From: Paenibacillus sp. JZ16
Lineage (GTDB): Bacteria > Bacillota > Bacilli > Paenibacillales > Paenibacillaceae
NCBI RefSeq assembly: GCF_015326965.1
Contig: NZ_CP017659.1
Location: 1-64,000, forward strand
DNA length: 64,000 bases
Direction of reading: 5' to 3'
Both the position numbers and the translations under genes were made by a program. The notes under the pieces were generated by a model. The model worked only from the letters and a program-made list of their open reading frames with translations. It had not been told where the DNA came from and did no database searches. Below are positions 2,665 to 42,775 of the stretch, piece by piece; positions within the stretch are counted from its first letter, which is position 1; each line of letters starts with the position of its first letter.

Positions 2665-4611
2665 TTACATGATCTTGTTCAAATAAAGCATATATTCACC
2701 GCGGTTCAGCGGGTTGACTTGTCGCCGTTTGTTCACAGGGACGGTGGCTTGCACCTTCACGTAGCCTCCTGGTTTAACGGAGAGCATGCCCTCACCGCTT
2801 GTCAGGGAATGGACTTCGGCTTTCAGCAAGTCGGTTGTCCGCACGGGGATGGTACCATGAACGTGGACAGCATGGTTGTGGAATGTTGGTTCCTGATAGG
2901 TCCCCTCTAGCGCTGCCAACTTGGATAACACTTTGCTTAAACTGGTTTCCGGCAGAATGAATTGGATGACATTGATAGGCTCGTATACTTCCGTTCCGGC
3001 TTTGCCCAGCGCAGACATGAGGACGAGTGGGGTCAGGCTGCGAAAATCCTTTGCCGTCGACACCGGACTTGCGTAACCGGTATGCGTCAGCGTCACGATA
3101 ATATCGGTCACGGTCCATCCATACAAACCTTCCTGGAGCACCTCAATCACCGTGTCTTTAATCGCTTTCTGAAAGGCTAAGGGGAGAGAGCCCAGTTCCA
3201 CTTCCAGACGATACTGAATTCCGGTTCCTCTCTCGCCAGGCTCAACCCGTAAGCCAACCGTTGCATAAAAAGGACATTCGCCAATAAATTCAACAGCCTC
3301 TCCGGTCGCAACCGGCTTCTCGATACAAATGACCCGCGGAGCAGAAAATGCAGCTTCGATGCCATATTGCTGCTGGATCGTTTCCAGCAGAATTTCCTGC
3401 TGGACTTTACCGAATACGTGGATGATGTTTTCTTTGGTTTTCATATCCTGGATATATTGCAGGAATGGATCCTCTTCGGTGAGATCGCATAAGGCCGTGT
3501 GTAGTTGATGCTCCTCCGCGGGATTCTTGGCCGAAACCTGGACTTGAATCGGCGGCTTCTGAAAGTGGACCCTCTTCATCCTGTCGGAAACAGCACCGAT
3601 GACGTCGCCCACCTTGAGTTCATCGGTCATGAGAATCGCAATGTCTCCGGCATCGATCTGATTCACCGGCATGGATTTGCCATGGTGCAGAGCATGGAGG
3701 TGTTTTACCTTGAACATGTTGATGTTTCCGTTCTGCATTATCACCGTAATCTCGTCTCGCGCCTGGATACTGCCGGCGAACAGCCGGAGGTATACGTTCC
3801 GTTCTCCGTTCGGAAGTTTGATCACTTTGAACACCAGGCCGGATAACGATTCATGCTGAAGCTCCGAGGCGTCATTAACGGGGAACAACTCACCAAGCGC
3901 TTGAAGCAGCGGCTCGATGCCGATCCCTTTGGCTGCTGATCCTGCAAATAGAGGGTAAGCTTTACCTTGCTGGGTTTGCCTGCGTAATTCTTCCTGCAGC
4001 CGCTCGCGTGATATGGGAATATCCTGGGCATAGTCGTTCAGCAGATCGTCATTGGTCAGTGCCAACATTTCGACCCATCCGGCGTTATGGGGATCGGCGA
4101 TGTCTACCCGAACGGTTGCGCTGCCCTCATGAGATACAGAGCTCATCTCGCAAATATGTTCATCCAGCAGATTTCGTATCATGGTATAGACATTGTGGTA
4201 ATTCGCGCCCATTCGATCGATCTTGTTCATGAATAGAAGGGTGGGAATCCGTTGTTCTTTCAGCGTCTGCATGAGCACCCGCGTCTGAGCCTGTACGCCC
4301 TCAACCGCGGAAATCACCAGAATGACGCCATCCAGCACACTCAGTGAATGCTCGACCTCCGAGATGAAATCGGCATGTCCCGGCGTATCGATCAGATTGA
4401 TTTTTAGATCGCCCAGCATGAAGGATACGGCAGCGGATTTTATCGTGATGCCCCGTCTTCGCTCAATCTCCAGCGAATCCGTGATGGTATTGCCTTGGTC
4501 AACGGAACCCGCTTGATCAATAATGCCGGATCTGAACAGGATTTGCTCCGTTAGTGTGGTTTTACCGGCATCAACATGGGCCAAAACTCCAATATTCAAT
4601 ATGTTCTTCAT
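2665..4611 (-). CDS. Tet(M)/Tet(O)-type ribosomal protection protein (EF-G-like GTPase)
   Basis: A 648-residue translational GTPase that would release tetracycline from the 70S ribosome. The G domain is at the N-terminus: AHVDAGKTT (about 10-18), the RRRGITIKSA switch region, DTPGHADF (about 76-83) and NKIDRMG (about 130). The domain order of EF-G follows, with no insertion or truncation, and the length suits Tet(M) (~640). The sequence is clearly not the mobile tet(M) itself and looks like a chromosomal family member. A 36-codon leader ORF with a strong SD overlaps its start. Whether it confers resistance cannot be told from sequence. Confidence 0.88.
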   Translation of the reverse strand: MKNILNIGVLAHVDAGKTTLTEQILFRSGIIDQAGSVDQGNTITDSLEIERRRGITIKSAAVSFMLGDLKINLIDTPGHADFISEVEHSLSVLDGVILVISAVEGVQAQTRVLMQTLKEQRIPTLLFMNKIDRMGANYHNVYTMIRNLLDEHICEMSSVSHEGSATVRVDIADPHNAGWVEMLALTNDDLLNDYAQDIPISRERLQEELRRQTQQGKAYPLFAGSAAKGIGIEPLLQALGELFPVNDASELQHESLSGLVFKVIKLPNGERNVYLRLFAGSIQARDEITVIMQNGNINMFKVKHLHALHHGKSMPVNQIDAGDIAILMTDELKVGDVIGAVSDRMKRVHFQKPPIQVQVSAKNPAEEHQLHTALCDLTEEDPFLQYIQDMKTKENIIHVFGKVQQEILLETIQQQYGIEAAFSAPRVICIEKPVATGEAVEFIGECPFYATVGLRVEPGERGTGIQYRLEVELGSLPLAFQKAIKDTVIEVLQEGLYGWTVTDIIVTLTHTGYASPVSTAKDFRSLTPLVLMSALGKAGTEVYEPINVIQFILPETSLSKVLSKLAALEGTYQEPTFHNHAVHVHGTIPVRTTDLLKAEVHSLTSGEGMLSVKPGGYVKVQATVPVNKRRQVNPLNRGEYMLYLNKIM

Positions 4612-4681
4612 ATATCATAACCCTCATTCGTTTCATAGTTAGTTGTCCTTTCGGTTGGAAGTTATGGTTCAATTGCCGCAT
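4571..4681 (-). CDS. Leader ORF overlapping the start of the Tet(M)-like gene
   Basis: On the minus strand an ATG with a good SD (ACGGAGGCGATATAC before it) opens a 36-codon frame beginning MRQLNHNFQPKGQ. It ends in TGA inside the first codons of the Tet(M)-like gene, in a different frame. The leader has a stronger SD than the resistance gene. tet(M) genes are known to have leader peptides linked to attenuation. Here I infer translational coupling or attenuation, but see no clear terminator hairpin in the leader. Confidence 0.5.
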   Translation of the reverse strand: MRQLNHNFQPKGQLTMKRMRVMIYEEHIEYWSFGPC

Positions 4682-4892
4682 GTATATCGCCTCCGTGTAA
4701 AATAAAGTTACTTCTAGTTTATCCATTGAGAGATGATCGGAATATGTAATAAATACTTATAATCGTTCATTATCTTGCTCTAAATATGGCAACGTGCAGC
4801 GTCTTATTTGAATTTACATATTTAATACCGTGAAAAATGGTCGGCATTGGATTAGGATAAAGGCATACACCATATATGAAGGAGTCTTGCAT

Positions 4893-5333
4893 TTGATAAC
4901 ACTTCATGCCATAGATAAGGACAATTGGGAGGATTGCATCCGTCTTAAACCAAGACCTGAACAGGAGAAGTGGATTGCCCCCAATCTATACTCGATAGCG
5001 GAAGCTCAATTCATGGAGGGCTTCAAAACGCGTGCGATCTACCATGATGAAGAGATGATCGGATTTGTGATGTATGGCCTGCACCCGCACGATGATAACT
5101 TCTGGATCTACCGGTTTATGATCGACGGCAAGTTTCAGGGACTACATTATGCCAAACCTGCGATTCGTTTGGTTCTCGAGGAGATTCGGAACTCGCCGGA
5201 TACAACAAACGATGTTATGCTCTGTTATAAATCCGAGAATGTACATGCAAAAAGGCTATATTCCCAAATCGGGTTTAAAGAAGCCGGGATTGCTCCATGG
5301 GGAGATGTGATGGCTAAATATCGTTTTATATGA
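4893..5333 (+). CDS. GNAT family N-acetyltransferase, BltD-like (spermidine/spermine acetyltransferase type)
   Basis: A 146-residue GNAT enzyme similar in layout to BltD/PaiA polyamine acetyltransferases. The GFVMYGL strand, FWIYRFMID, QGLHYAKPAIRLVLEEI (acetyl-CoA pyrophosphate loop, partly degenerate) and ENVHAKRLYSQIGF are seen in order. The start is taken as TTG 4893 because GAAGGAG lies 8 bases upstream. An ATG in the same frame at 4830 has no SD and would add 21 unrelated residues. It is probably co-transcribed with the phosphatase and IF-3 paralogue, 22 bp downstream. Confidence 0.8.
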   Translation: MITLHAIDKDNWEDCIRLKPRPEQEKWIAPNLYSIAEAQFMEGFKTRAIYHDEEMIGFVMYGLHPHDDNFWIYRFMIDGKFQGLHYAKPAIRLVLEEIRNSPDTTNDVMLCYKSENVHAKRLYSQIGFKEAGIAPWGDVMAKYRFI

Positions 5334-5355
5334 TTAGCGTAGGGAGGGAACGGCA

Positions 5356-6105
5356 ATTCGAATATTAGCGATTAGCGACATTCATGGCTGCTACGATGAG
5401 TTCAATCAGTTACTGTATGATGTGCAGTACAATCCCGCTAAGGACAAGCTGATCTTGCTCGGGGATTATGTGGATCGCGGATTCAAAAGCAGGGAAGTCA
5501 TTGAACAAGTGATGAAACTGCGGGATGAAGGTGCCATCACTCTTCGCGGAAATCATGACCAGATGATGCTGGATGCCATTTTGCTTGATACGGATGAAGC
5601 GAACTCGCGCTGGATTCGCAATGGAGCTCGACATACGATTGAAAGCTACTGCGGCGCCGATTTTTTTGAGGGTGAAATGGATCGTGCCAGATATAACGAA
5701 GGAAAAGCCTATATTAAGAAGGGGTATGAGCATCATCTATCCTTTCTTGATACGCTGGCTCTCTTCTATGAAACAGACACTCACATATTCGTGCATGCAG
5801 GGATCAATCCGGGTGTTGAAGACTGGAAGTTGCAGCCTCAGGATGATTTCATCTGGATACGGGAACCATTCTTCAATTATCCTACAGGCATCAACAAAAC
5901 CGTGGTGTTCGGGCATACGCCAGCGGTCAACCTGCACGACTCGGAGCAGATCTGGTTCTGTGGAGAAGGGGACAAAATCGGTATTGATGGAGCGTGCGTG
6001 TACGGTAAACAGCTGAACTGTCTGGAAATCACGGAAGAGCAGGAATACCGAACCCATTCTGTTCGGTTCATGCACCATGATGTGAACGCAAAGGCAGAGC
6101 AATGA
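5356..6105 (+). CDS. Metallophosphoesterase / serine-threonine protein phosphatase, apparent ATT start
   Basis: A calcineurin-like phosphoesterase of about 249 residues. Metal ligands appear in order: SDIHG (residues 7-11), GDYVDRG (about 37-43), RGNHD (about 68-72), FVHAG, and VFGHTP. This is the PrpA/PrpE/PP2A-like bacterial set. No ATG, GTG or TTG lies between the in-frame stop at 5335-5337 and the catalytic SDIHG motif. The codon 7 bases after the SD GGGAGGG (5342-5348) is ATT, giving N-terminus (M)RILAISDIHG. The internal GTG at 5422 would remove the first metal ligands. An AUU start is known for infC of enteric bacteria, and an IF-3 paralogue follows this gene. Confidence 0.82.
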   Translation: MRILAISDIHGCYDEFNQLLYDVQYNPAKDKLILLGDYVDRGFKSREVIEQVMKLRDEGAITLRGNHDQMMLDAILLDTDEANSRWIRNGARHTIESYCGADFFEGEMDRARYNEGKAYIKKGYEHHLSFLDTLALFYETDTHIFVHAGINPGVEDWKLQPQDDFIWIREPFFNYPTGINKTVVFGHTPAVNLHDSEQIWFCGEGDKIGIDGACVYGKQLNCLEITEEQEYRTHSVRFMHHDVNAKAEQ

Positions 6106-6138
6106 ACGAACACCTACTTTTAATAGGAGGATCTATCC

Positions 6139-6627
6139 ATGTTAATGATGAATGAAAAGATAAAAGCACGCGAAGTAGAGCTGACCGGCTTAAACGGCGA
6201 AGATCTGGGAGTCGTCTCCAGGGATGAGGCACTTGTGCTGGCGAAAAGTCACAAAGCCGATTTGGTGTGTACCTCCCTATTCAGCAGTCCCCCGCCATGC
6301 AAACTCGTAAGCCGGGGGCAGGCGAAGCAGGAGGCTGTGAAAGAGAAGAAGGGCCAGCAAGCTTCAGCCGGTCCGATGAAAGTAAAGGAATTCCGCTTGT
6401 CCGTCCATATCGAAGAGCATGATTATGACACCAAGCTGTCGCAAATGCATAAGCTGCTGGCAGCGGGCAAAGCTGTCCAGCCCGTTATTCGCATTCAAGG
6501 CAGGGAGGGCGAAGCCGCCCGCAAACTGCTGGAGCGACTCGTGCAGGATCTGGCTGAGGTAGGCAAGAAGGAGACGGGTATACAAGTCAGCGGCAAGCAG
6601 GCTACGGTGAAGCTGCTGCCTATCTAA
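6139..6627 (+). CDS. Divergent paralogue of translation initiation factor IF-3
   Basis: A 162-residue protein with both IF-3 domains. The N-terminal part NEKIKAREVELTGLNGEDLG followed by VVSRDEAL matches the IF-3 start. The C-terminal part KVKEFRLSVHIEEHDYDTKL matches the IF-3 C-domain. The linker is altered: the usual DYGKFxYEQ is replaced by VSRGQAKQEA. The conserved FRGRE stretch reads IQGREGE. So it is an IF-3 homologue but not the canonical infC, which normally sits with rpmI-rplT. SD is TAGGAGG. It is 33 bp after the phosphatase stop. Likely role: modified start-codon selection or ribosome interaction under some condition (inference). Confidence 0.8.
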   Translation: MLMMNEKIKAREVELTGLNGEDLGVVSRDEALVLAKSHKADLVCTSLFSSPPPCKLVSRGQAKQEAVKEKKGQQASAGPMKVKEFRLSVHIEEHDYDTKLSQMHKLLAAGKAVQPVIRIQGREGEAARKLLERLVQDLAEVGKKETGIQVSGKQATVKLLPI

Positions 6628-6684
6628 CAGAACGGGACAAATTTTTCATTGCATCGGCGTTTCATTGCAGTCGACGTTTTACGG

Positions 6685-6713
6685 TTTACTTTTTATTTTT
6701 TTGATGATACTAT
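6685..6713 (+). promoter_or_regulatory. Sigma-A promoter of the glnS T-box transcript
   Basis: TTTACT, 17-bp spacer, then TACTAT with an extended -10 TGA directly before it. The T-box leader begins just downstream. Confidence 0.65.
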
Positions 6714-6719
6714 GGATCA

Positions 6720-7012
6720 AATTGTAAACGCCATGAAGAGAAGAGTAGATGAACAGGAATCCCTACAGAGAGCTCCGGTAAGCTGAAAAGGAGTTGGATG
6801 CCATTCATTGAACCAAGCCTCTGAGCGGCGCATCGGAACTTATGGATAAGGGATGGTGCGACAGGAGCTCCTGTTACAGAGCTAGGGTATAAGCGATCGC
6901 GTGATGGCCGTACCTGATAAGGCCTGATATCGTGAGATATCGGCGAATAGGGGTGGCACCGCGAAACCAATCTCGTCCCCAAGACTTATGTCTTGGAGAC
7001 GGGATTTTTTTG
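6720..7012 (+). ncRNA. T-box leader, glutamine specifier (CAA), with antitermination terminator
   Basis: Stem I features are present: AGAGAGCTCCGGTAAGCTGAAA near 6765-6787. The specifier region reads GAACCAAGCC, giving CAA (Gln) at 6814-6816. The T-box core AGGGGTGGCACCGCG is at 6949-6963. An intrinsic terminator follows: the stem CTCGTCCCCAAGAC / GTCTTGGAGACGGG and a run of T at 6972-7012. The UGGC bulge would pair with a GCCA tRNA 3' end. The leader thus raises glnS expression when uncharged tRNA-Gln accumulates. Confidence 0.93.
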
Positions 7013-7060
7013 TTTTTCATGGAATTACGGCAGATCCAACAACGTAAGGAGGAGTCAGGT

Positions 7061-8743
7061 ATGAGCGACGACAAAAACAAAGGAGAAGAAACGGTGGATT
7101 TCTTGACCAAGATGATCAAGGAGGATGTAGAGAACAGCGTGTATCACAGGCCGGTGGCTACGCGATTTCCGCCGGAGCCCAACGGCTATCTGCACATCGG
7201 CAGCGCCTATGCGATTTACATTAATCACTCCATCGCCAGCCGGTTTCATGGAACATTCAATCTTCGGTTCGACGATACGAATCCACTGAAGGAAGATATC
7301 AAATATGTGCATGCGATTCAGGAGGATATCGAGTGGCTTGGACTTAAGCCGAGTGTATATTTCGGGTCGGATTATGCGGATCAAATCGCTGAAGCGGCCA
7401 AGAAACTCATTGCCAAAGGGAAGGCTTATGTCTGCGATCTCTCGCCCGAACAAATGACGGAATACAGGGGGACGCTGACCGAAGCCGGCATCAACAGCCC
7501 GTTTCGGGAGCGCAGCATTGAGGAGAATATGGCATTATTTGAGCAAATGATCGCGGGAGCATTCCATACGTCGGAAAAAGTACTCCGAGCCAAAATCGAT
7601 ATGTCGTCCCCCAACATGAACCTGAGAGATCCCGTCCTGTATCGTATCATTCATGCGAAGCATTATCGGACCGGAACAACTTGGTGTGTGTATCCGATGT
7701 ACGATTTCGCCCATCCGATCCAGGACTGGATCGAAGGAATTACCCATTCGCTATGCTCAGCCGAATTTAAAGATCATCGACCGCTATACGAGTGGGTACT
7801 TACGGAGCTGGAAGTAACCGAGCCGCCGAAACAGCGGGAATTCGGAAGATTGAATATCTCGGGATACGTTACGAGCAAGCGATACCTGAGGGAATTGGTA
7901 GAGGGGGGCTTTGTCGACGGATGGGATGACCCTAGACTGCCAACGTTGAAAGGATTACGGCGGCGAGGCGTGACACCTGAGGGCATTCGGCGTTTTCTGG
8001 GCGAACTCGGGGTGTTTCGCGGCAACAGTCTGGTGGATTCAGGCATGCTCGATCATTATATCCGTCAAGACTTGAAGGAACGGTGTTATAACGCAATGGC
8101 TGTCATGAAGCCGCTGAAGGTGATCATCACGAATCTTTCAGAAGATTGCACCGAGATGCTTGCTATACCGAATCATGAAAATGATGATACGTTGGGTGAG
8201 CGGGAGGTTCCTTTTTCACGGGAGTTGTACATCGAGCGTGAGGACTTTATGGAGGAGCCCGTTCCTGGATTTCACCGGTTATCTCCTGGCAAGGAAGTGC
8301 GTTTGAAAGGAGCCTACTTCATCAAATGCGAACATGTCGTGAAAGCTCCAGACACGGGGGACATCATGGAGATCCACTGCACGTATGATCCATTAACGAA
8401 GAGCGGGAGCGGATTTAATGAGCGGAAGGTGAAAGCAACGCTGCATTGGGTGTCTGCGAAGCACGGGATCCCGGCGGAACTTCACTTGTATGATAAGCTG
8501 CTGAAGGAATCTGCCGAGTTATCTGAATCGGGGAACATATGGGAGGAGCTAATGAATCCCGCATCGTTGATTCGCATCGAAAATGCTATATTGGAGCCTT
8601 CCATGCAGGAGGCGACCCAAAACCGAACGTACCAATTCATCAGACACGGCTATTTCTGCGTGGATTCCAAATATACGACCGAACGGAGACTGGTGTTTAA
8701 CCGTATCGTTCCTTTGAAGGATTCATGGAAGAAGCCTATGTGA
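7061..8743 (+). CDS. glnS: Glutaminyl-tRNA synthetase
   Basis: A 560-residue class I synthetase of normal bacterial GlnRS length. PPEPNGYLHIGSA with the HIGH-type motif is at residues 38-49. FDDTNP, the GlnRS-specific GWDDPRLPTLKGLRRRGVTP, and a KMSKS-like loop VTSKR near 270 follow, then the C-terminal beta-barrel anticodon domain. The loop lacks the usual Met and final Ser. The start is the ATG after AAGGAGGAG; the frame extends upstream only by reading through the T-box terminator. Bacillus subtilis lacks GlnRS and makes Gln-tRNA through GatCAB, so the gene is notable in this lineage. Confidence 0.95.
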   Translation: MSDDKNKGEETVDFLTKMIKEDVENSVYHRPVATRFPPEPNGYLHIGSAYAIYINHSIASRFHGTFNLRFDDTNPLKEDIKYVHAIQEDIEWLGLKPSVYFGSDYADQIAEAAKKLIAKGKAYVCDLSPEQMTEYRGTLTEAGINSPFRERSIEENMALFEQMIAGAFHTSEKVLRAKIDMSSPNMNLRDPVLYRIIHAKHYRTGTTWCVYPMYDFAHPIQDWIEGITHSLCSAEFKDHRPLYEWVLTELEVTEPPKQREFGRLNISGYVTSKRYLRELVEGGFVDGWDDPRLPTLKGLRRRGVTPEGIRRFLGELGVFRGNSLVDSGMLDHYIRQDLKERCYNAMAVMKPLKVIITNLSEDCTEMLAIPNHENDDTLGEREVPFSRELYIEREDFMEEPVPGFHRLSPGKEVRLKGAYFIKCEHVVKAPDTGDIMEIHCTYDPLTKSGSGFNERKVKATLHWVSAKHGIPAELHLYDKLLKESAELSESGNIWEELMNPASLIRIENAILEPSMQEATQNRTYQFIRHGYFCVDSKYTTERRLVFNRIVPLKDSWKKPM

Positions 8744-42155: not shown

Positions 42156-42775
42156 GATTTTTTTGCACCTCCTGAACCGGTCTCCTGCAGCAATTGATAC
42201 AACTTGACGATCGAGGTTGCGACATCCACCATTCTTTTTCTTTCATTCATCGCCTGTTTGCGCAGGACATCGTATGCTTCGGATTCCGAAATATTTTTCA
42301 TCTTGCATAGAATGCCTTTGGCCATATCAATCCATTTACGCTCTTCAATGCGAGCAAGGAGCTGCGTTCTTTCGTTATGCCACTGCTCTCGTTCGTAAAA
42401 ATGCTTGGAGCTAAAATGCAGCGTCCAATGCAGCTCATGCTCCTTCATGGCGGGAAATAAAAGTCCATCAATGATAACATCATCCTCACATGCTTCGAGA
42501 GATTGCGAAGCGGCATGATCGCTGCACCACCACAGAACCGGAACGCGCTTTTGTTGTTCAAGGGTATTGGACCACGATTTGATTGCGGCAACCGGGAGGT
42601 GGAGAACCGTTCCGTCTGCTTCCACGATTCCAGCCAGCGCTTGCTTCTCACTTCGGGCAAGGAGGACCTTGTATCCATAAGAACGAAGGATAAACTCCGG
42701 AAGAAGCGCCCTGGCATCTGTGTCACTTCGCTCTGAAGCAGGGACCGGATGGTGGATAACCAGCAATGAACGCAT
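42152..42775 (-). CDS. ANTAR-domain RNA-binding antitermination regulator
   Basis: A 207-residue protein. Residues ~1-125 resemble a degenerate receiver domain with no clear phospho-acceptor set. Residues ~135-195 are the three-helix ANTAR domain: LLARIEERKWIDMAKGILCKMKNISESEAYDVLRKQAMNE, matching the ALxxRxxIxxAKGxLM pattern. ANTAR proteins bind tandem hexaloop hairpins in leader RNA and block termination. Exactly such hairpins lie in the leader of the divergent nirB gene. There is no NIT or other nitrate sensor in this protein, so the signal probably comes from a partner. SD AAAGGAG. Confidence 0.85.
   Translation of the reverse strand: MRSLLVIHHPVPASERSDTDARALLPEFILRSYGYKVLLARSEKQALAGIVEADGTVLHLPVAAIKSWSNTLEQQKRVPVLWWCSDHAASQSLEACEDDVIIDGLLFPAMKEHELHWTLHFSSKHFYEREQWHNERTQLLARIEERKWIDMAKGILCKMKNISESEAYDVLRKQAMNERKRMVDVATSIVKLYQLLQETGSGGAKKS

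Follow-up and report, generated by a model that had tools for sequence, protein, structure and literature searches.

In the 64,000-nucleotide stretch of Paenibacillus DNA analysed here (the window), a gene for a predicted PPP-family phosphatase very probably starts at an ATT codon, and most of its relatives in the Paenibacillaceae bear ATT or ATC at the same position. We put at about 0.7 the probability that this AUU/AUC start has been selected, that it throttles synthesis of the phosphatase and makes it sensitive to IF3, and that the IF-3 paralogue encoded just downstream is not the regulator. The features concerned are listed in Table 1.

The phosphatase frame and its predicted product

The phosphatase frame was free of stop codons from 5338 to 6105, and its codons from 5338 read CGT AGG GAG GGA ACG GCA ATT CGA ATA TTA GCG ATT AGC GAC ATT CAT GGC, with initiation at ATT 5356 giving (M)RILAISDIHG. 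Between the upstream TAG and the D-x-H motif this frame had no ATG, GTG or TTG, as the original prediction had held for the region up to the first metal-ligand motif; the earliest canonical codon was the GTG at codon +22. The placing of a GGGAGGG 7 bases upstream of the ATT and of a 33 bp gap between the phosphatase and the IF-3-like gene, both part of the same prediction, agreed with the coordinates, since the former gene ends at 6105 and the ATG of the latter stands at 6139.

Table 1. Features of the phosphatase locus in the window, with their positions and the basis of each assignment.
Feature	Position	Strand	Basis or remark
EF-G-like GTPase	2665-4611	-	Resembles tetracycline ribosomal-protection proteins; tet_protect score 715.4 bits, short of its 775 cut-off
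Upstream in-frame stop (TAG) of the phosphatase frame	5335-5337	+	Frame inspection
Shine-Dalgarno sequence GGGAGGG	5342-5348 (GGAGG core 5343-5347)	+	7 nt from the ATT
Very probable start codon (ATT) of the phosphatase	5356-5358	+	Alignment column and identical leaders with ATG, ATT or ATC
Predicted PPP-family metallophosphatase, 249 aa	5356-6105	+	PF00149, 64.8 bits; 1g5b top match in PDB
GTG, earliest canonical codon of the phosphatase frame	5422-5424	+	Initiation here would delete the D-x-H metal motif
IF-3 paralogue, 162 aa, with ATG and its own Shine-Dalgarno sequence	6139-6627	+	Neighbour, probably not the controller
T-box leader RF00230	6724-6983	+	100.5 bits; precedes an aminoacyl-tRNA synthetase frame

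An ATT, ATC or ATA preceded by a Shine-Dalgarno (SD) sequence and lying ahead of the first canonical start was found in 2 of the 75 window frames of at least 150 codons from stop to stop, and the SD-preceded ATT of the phosphatase frame exceeds the chance expectation in the window. The second frame, at 42158 on the minus strand, had an SD-preceded ATC with a canonical start as the very next codon, and is probably a trivial case. A scan of positions 4500-7300 against Rfam at gathering thresholds detected no known regulatory RNA over the phosphatase start, the only match being the downstream T-box; the synthetase frame that follows the T-box is presumably glnS. Genes related to translation were clustered around the locus (Table 1).

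The members of the PPP family bear GDxHG-, GDxVDRG-, GNHD- and His-type motifs. In an alignment of 12 of the phosphatases the columns D8, H10, D37, R41, N66, H67, H147 and H187 were invariant, as were GDYVDRG and GNHD, and the first motif read SDIHG. The best PDB match by sequence profile was the lambda Ser/Thr protein phosphatase 1g5b (9.9e-17), which also came first in a fold search (E 1.4e-12, 27% identity) with a predicted model of mean pLDDT 87.3 and pTM 0.88, closely followed by Ap4A hydrolases and PnkP. Motifs and fold thus both place the protein in the PPP family. The scores stayed below the NCBIfam equivalog cut-offs for ApaH (90.5 of 176 and 66.6 of 222.85), PRK11439 (64.7 of 326) and PrpE (44.8 of 340). 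The product is described as a predicted PPP-family phosphatase, nearest to the lambda protein phosphatase by the top rank of 1g5b in both searches, and may act on proteins or on nucleotides.

Start codons across the Paenibacillaceae clade

Matches to the phosphatase (E 0.001) were found in 72 of 100 genomes of the genus, and at E 1e-30 in 177 of 295 genomes of the family. Partial or split genes (G044, G029 and G005) and weaker matches were left out of the genus set; among family matches weaker than about 7e-69 only those of G110 and G166 were taken, and a second copy in G184 was left out. In one retrieval 80 of 558 relatives were kept. The phosphatase tree took genes of at least 200 bits (133 of the 194 distinct genes), after IF-3 paralogue loci, infC loci and exact duplicates had been taken out. 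In this quick tree, of whose 130 inner branches 53 were open, the window gene belonged to a branch of 98 genes from the Paenibacillaceae with an SH-aLRT of 96, referred to here as the clade. Two loci (L055 and L243) gave no motif, and distant homologues in Brevibacillus, Bacillus, Planococcus and proteobacteria lie outside the start-codon counts.

Non-canonical starts were found in 72 of the 98 clade genes (ATC 46, ATT 25, GTT 1) and canonical ones in 26 (ATG 21, TTG 5). One ATC and one ATG start sit one codon earlier (ATC 45+1, ATG 20+1), and these two genes, L104 and L106, are omitted from the start alignment, whose column in 96 genes consisted of ATC 45, ATT 25, ATG 20, TTG 5 and GTT 1. The 35 genes outside the clade began with ATG (30), TTG (2), GTG (1) or ATT (1), one being left unresolved by the rule used, and in 29 of them the start was one codon earlier, many reading M-K-R. 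Over the whole tree the changes between canonical and non-canonical starts numbered at least 12. The proposal that orthologues would conserve the ATT thus found support in 70 of the 96 aligned genes, with either ATT or ATC. ATG at the same codon, which the original prediction had taken as grounds for seeing the ATT as a local mutation or sequence error, did occur in 20 of the 96; the 70 genes with ATT or ATC nevertheless rule out a local mutation or a sequencing error.

Two further loci had unusual starts. In L142 (G184), outside the clade, the ATT lies one codon earlier and the frame upstream of it lacks a canonical start, so that this is possibly an independent case. L014 and L189, which are the same gene, have the GTT in the start column with a strong SD sequence and also canonical starts upstream in frame; this GTT resembles the GTT variants of sigR described in PMC5472188.

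Several observations suggested that this codon initiates. No canonical start lay upstream in frame in 44 of the 72 non-canonical genes, and 27 of these also had none through codon +8. An SD sequence was situated at 5-10 nt in all 72, with at least five exact bases in 61. One identical 30-nt leader preceded ATG in eight genes, ATT in five and ATC in one, and another pair of genes with a common leader had ATT in one and ATG in the other. Over the 70 ATT/ATC rows the start column showed 5 third-base changes, against between 9 and 19 in each of ten conserved Ile columns; among 27 conserved two-fold (NNY) columns, 3 changed as little (at most 5 times). ATA was found in none of the 70, compared with 227 of the 1615 internal Ile codons. 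On the absence of ATA, the slow third base and the identical leaders followed by ATG, an ordinary internal Ile codon was rejected.

A real start elsewhere, either upstream or at a TTG or GTG at +3 or +4 in some genomes, with the ATT/ATC as a plain Ile codon, would fit the 28 of the 72 genes in which a canonical codon upstream in frame makes an extended form possible. It would also fit part of the public annotation: 339 public relatives were found and 120 of them listed, and in the protein records of the 32 that were read the start was placed at the codon in 10, upstream in 10 and downstream in 12. This disagreement itself suggests why such starts get missed, and one record (P0070, strain OK003) starts at the ATT of L191 and so already reads ATT as Met. 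However, the genes with no canonical start upstream, the occurrence of the same leader with ATG, the behaviour of the third base and an SD spacing that suits the ATT/ATC codon in every non-canonical gene make a start elsewhere most improbable. We conclude that AUU 5356 is very probably the start of the phosphatase, as originally predicted, the codon being conserved as AUU or AUC.

In the mechanism that we favour, the phosphatase would be translated from AUU 5356 by the initiator tRNA, with the strong SD sequence 7 nt upstream holding initiation at that codon. The AUU/AUC start would be an old, selected feature of this phosphatase clade that acts as a brake, recognition of the mRNA being good and the codon-anticodon step poor, and could be rejected by classical IF3, the product of infC. 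The phosphatase would be kept low and its level should rise as discrimination by IF3 falls. The start looks like a selected brake because most of the relatives examined keep AUU/AUC there, and it seems dispensable in 26 of the 98 genes because ATG or TTG stands in its place. A strong SD sequence as a compensation peculiar to weak starts was not supported, since the ATG genes of the clade share it (mean SD energy -13.5 kcal/mol, n=21, beside -12.65 for the ATC genes, n=46, and -13.1 for the ATT genes, n=25).

The weak start may also serve constitutive low dosage alone, limiting a phosphatase that is harmful in excess, with no regulation by the level of IF3. The exchange of ATT, ATC and ATG behind identical leaders is what would be expected if the output level alone mattered, and we hold this to be a credible, though not the favoured, account. 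Against it, the start codon changes slowly even at its third base, and by analogy with infC and sigR (PMC5472188) some degree of IF3 sensitivity would be expected of an AUU/AUC start.

The IF-3 paralogue and classical infC

The gene downstream of the phosphatase had been called a divergent IF-3, which its scores bore out: PF05198 and PF00707 (IF3_N and IF3_C) exceeded their cut-offs, and TIGR00168 gave 105.6 bits against a cut-off of 60. Of the 100 genus genomes, 99 had a match to it with an E value no worse than 1e-39, and the remaining one, G029, had only a 55%-identical part; in the family it was matched at E 1e-26 in 253 of the 295 genomes. Across the genus the paralogue was mostly far from the phosphatase. 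It was directly adjacent and intact in six genomes (G000, G070, G069, G032, G033 and G052); G063 had a broken copy next to the phosphatase, and in G024 the distance was 1.4 kb. In the branch termed g7 all 32 genes were followed by it on the same strand at a distance of about 1.3-2.3 kb; at L191 a single gene, which may encode a manganese-dependent inorganic pyrophosphatase, separates the two. The paralogue adjoins the phosphatase in two lineages only. The adjacent match in G063 (L059, G063:C3:294075-294515) contains two in-frame TAG codons, indicating a decaying copy, and that genome has three IF-3-type matches.

The original prediction had gone further and proposed a circuit in which the IF-3 paralogue tunes translation of its neighbour through the AUU. 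The adjacency in six genomes, the broken and the 1.4 kb cases and the constant arrangement of the g7 branch speak for such a circuit, and the presence of the paralogue throughout the genus would allow action in trans. The start codons pointed the other way: non-canonical starts were rarer in linked genes (21 of 40) than in unlinked ones (51 of 58, a group in which 25 cases come from draft genomes where phosphatase and paralogue lay on separate contigs), and canonical starts made up a larger share of the linked (19 of 40) than of the unlinked genes (7 of 58). The Fisher value of 0.00012 (without L190) assumes independence of related genes, and we do not read it as a probability. Moreover, the presence of the paralogue was independent of the start codon and, contrary to the expectation that it would always follow ATT-start orthologues, 51 of the 72 non-canonical genes were unlinked. 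On these linkage counts adjacency was rejected as the cause of the weak start.

The protein has also diverged. Twenty-eight R/K/H columns conserved in at least 95% of 29 infC sequences were compared with the commonest residue in 30 paralogues; 6 were kept, 6 were R/K swaps and 16 were lost, and the RFRGREITH segment of infC had become RIxGKEG. The 30 paralogues themselves start mostly with ATG at or near the start, and one with GTG. Taken with the start-codon counts, the loss of these residues makes control of the phosphatase by the neighbouring paralogue very unlikely, and the paralogue is probably an incidental neighbour. Our literature search, whose coverage left subscription journals and bioRxiv largely outside, found no paper on the Paenibacillus IF-3 paralogue.

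Classical infC was sampled in 30 loci, 19 from the genus and 11 from other families of the order, of which 29 gave a pattern match. There was none in L166. The match fell one codon early in L162, at a CTT followed by ATT, and in ten rows at a GTT followed by ATC. As judged by SD sequence and homology, all 19 loci of the genus have ATC as the infC start, ten of them one codon past the pattern match. In the genome of the window it (L182, G000:C1:3012492-3012749) has an ATC start behind a TTTGGAGGTGG site. In the genus, then, an AUC codon also begins the gene for IF3, which is known to discriminate against starts of this type. Because infC is AUC-started in all 19, classical IF3 would be the likelier discriminator; the paralogue is ATG-started and has lost 16 of the 28 residues. 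The premise that IF-3 rejects AUU-type starts holds in so far as PMC5472188 and PMC13009471 place such starts in the class that IF3 discriminates against.

IF3 sensitivity of both starts would allow infC and the phosphatase to form an IF3-responsive set in Paenibacillus, both rising together when IF3 activity drops, as in slow growth or with a changed ribosome-to-IF3 ratio. We regard such a set, with these triggers, as rather unlikely; if it existed, a signal from translation initiation would be turned into protein dephosphorylation.

Relation to known non-canonical starts

The infC gene, which encodes IF3, is known for an AUU/AUC start through which IF3 regulates its own synthesis. The phosphatase resembles it in combining a weak AUN start with a strong SD sequence, and differs in that canonical starts occur in 26 of its 98 orthologues; since its product is a phosphatase, it would lack a self-feedback loop of the infC type. 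The AUU start of E. coli pcnB reportedly limits its translation, and the title of the 2002 work of Binns and Masters is said to suggest that excess is harmful. There, too, an AUU start limits an enzyme, in that case poly(A) polymerase. With subscription journals and bioRxiv again largely outside its coverage, the literature search found no paper on the phosphatase start.

According to PMC5472188, only a small number of bacterial genes that conserve a non-canonical start have so far been studied in any detail. That source describes the sigR gene of Streptomyces as repressed by IF3, with a conserved GTC start (GTC in 32 of 34, GTT in 2) and a conserved strong RBS. Here, too, a gene other than infC has a conserved non-canonical start and a strong RBS; the gene, the codon and the phylum are different, and repression by IF3, shown for sigR (PMC5472188), would hold for the phosphatase by inference. 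The ccpN (AUA) and cvfC1 (AUU) genes of S. aureus likewise come from a Firmicute and combine conserved non-canonical starts with extended SD sequences (PMC13009471); in poor medium, reporters bearing the non-canonical starts reached about 10% of the AUG level. They encode a transcriptional repressor and a small protein of 61 aa, respectively, and use AUA and AUU, whereas the clade described here encodes a phosphatase and has mostly AUC (PMC13009471). A clade-wide AUU/AUC start is unusual, because in a survey of start-codon switches that covered 61,358 ancestral AUG starts, one had switched to AUU (PMC5622118).

The kind of start is therefore already known from infC, pcnB, sigR, ccpN and cvfC1. 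What the phosphatase adds is an uncommon natural allelic series, with dozens of orthologues and ATG, ATT and ATC behind identical leaders, in which one can test directly what a weak start is worth under selection and how far discrimination by IF3 extends beyond infC.
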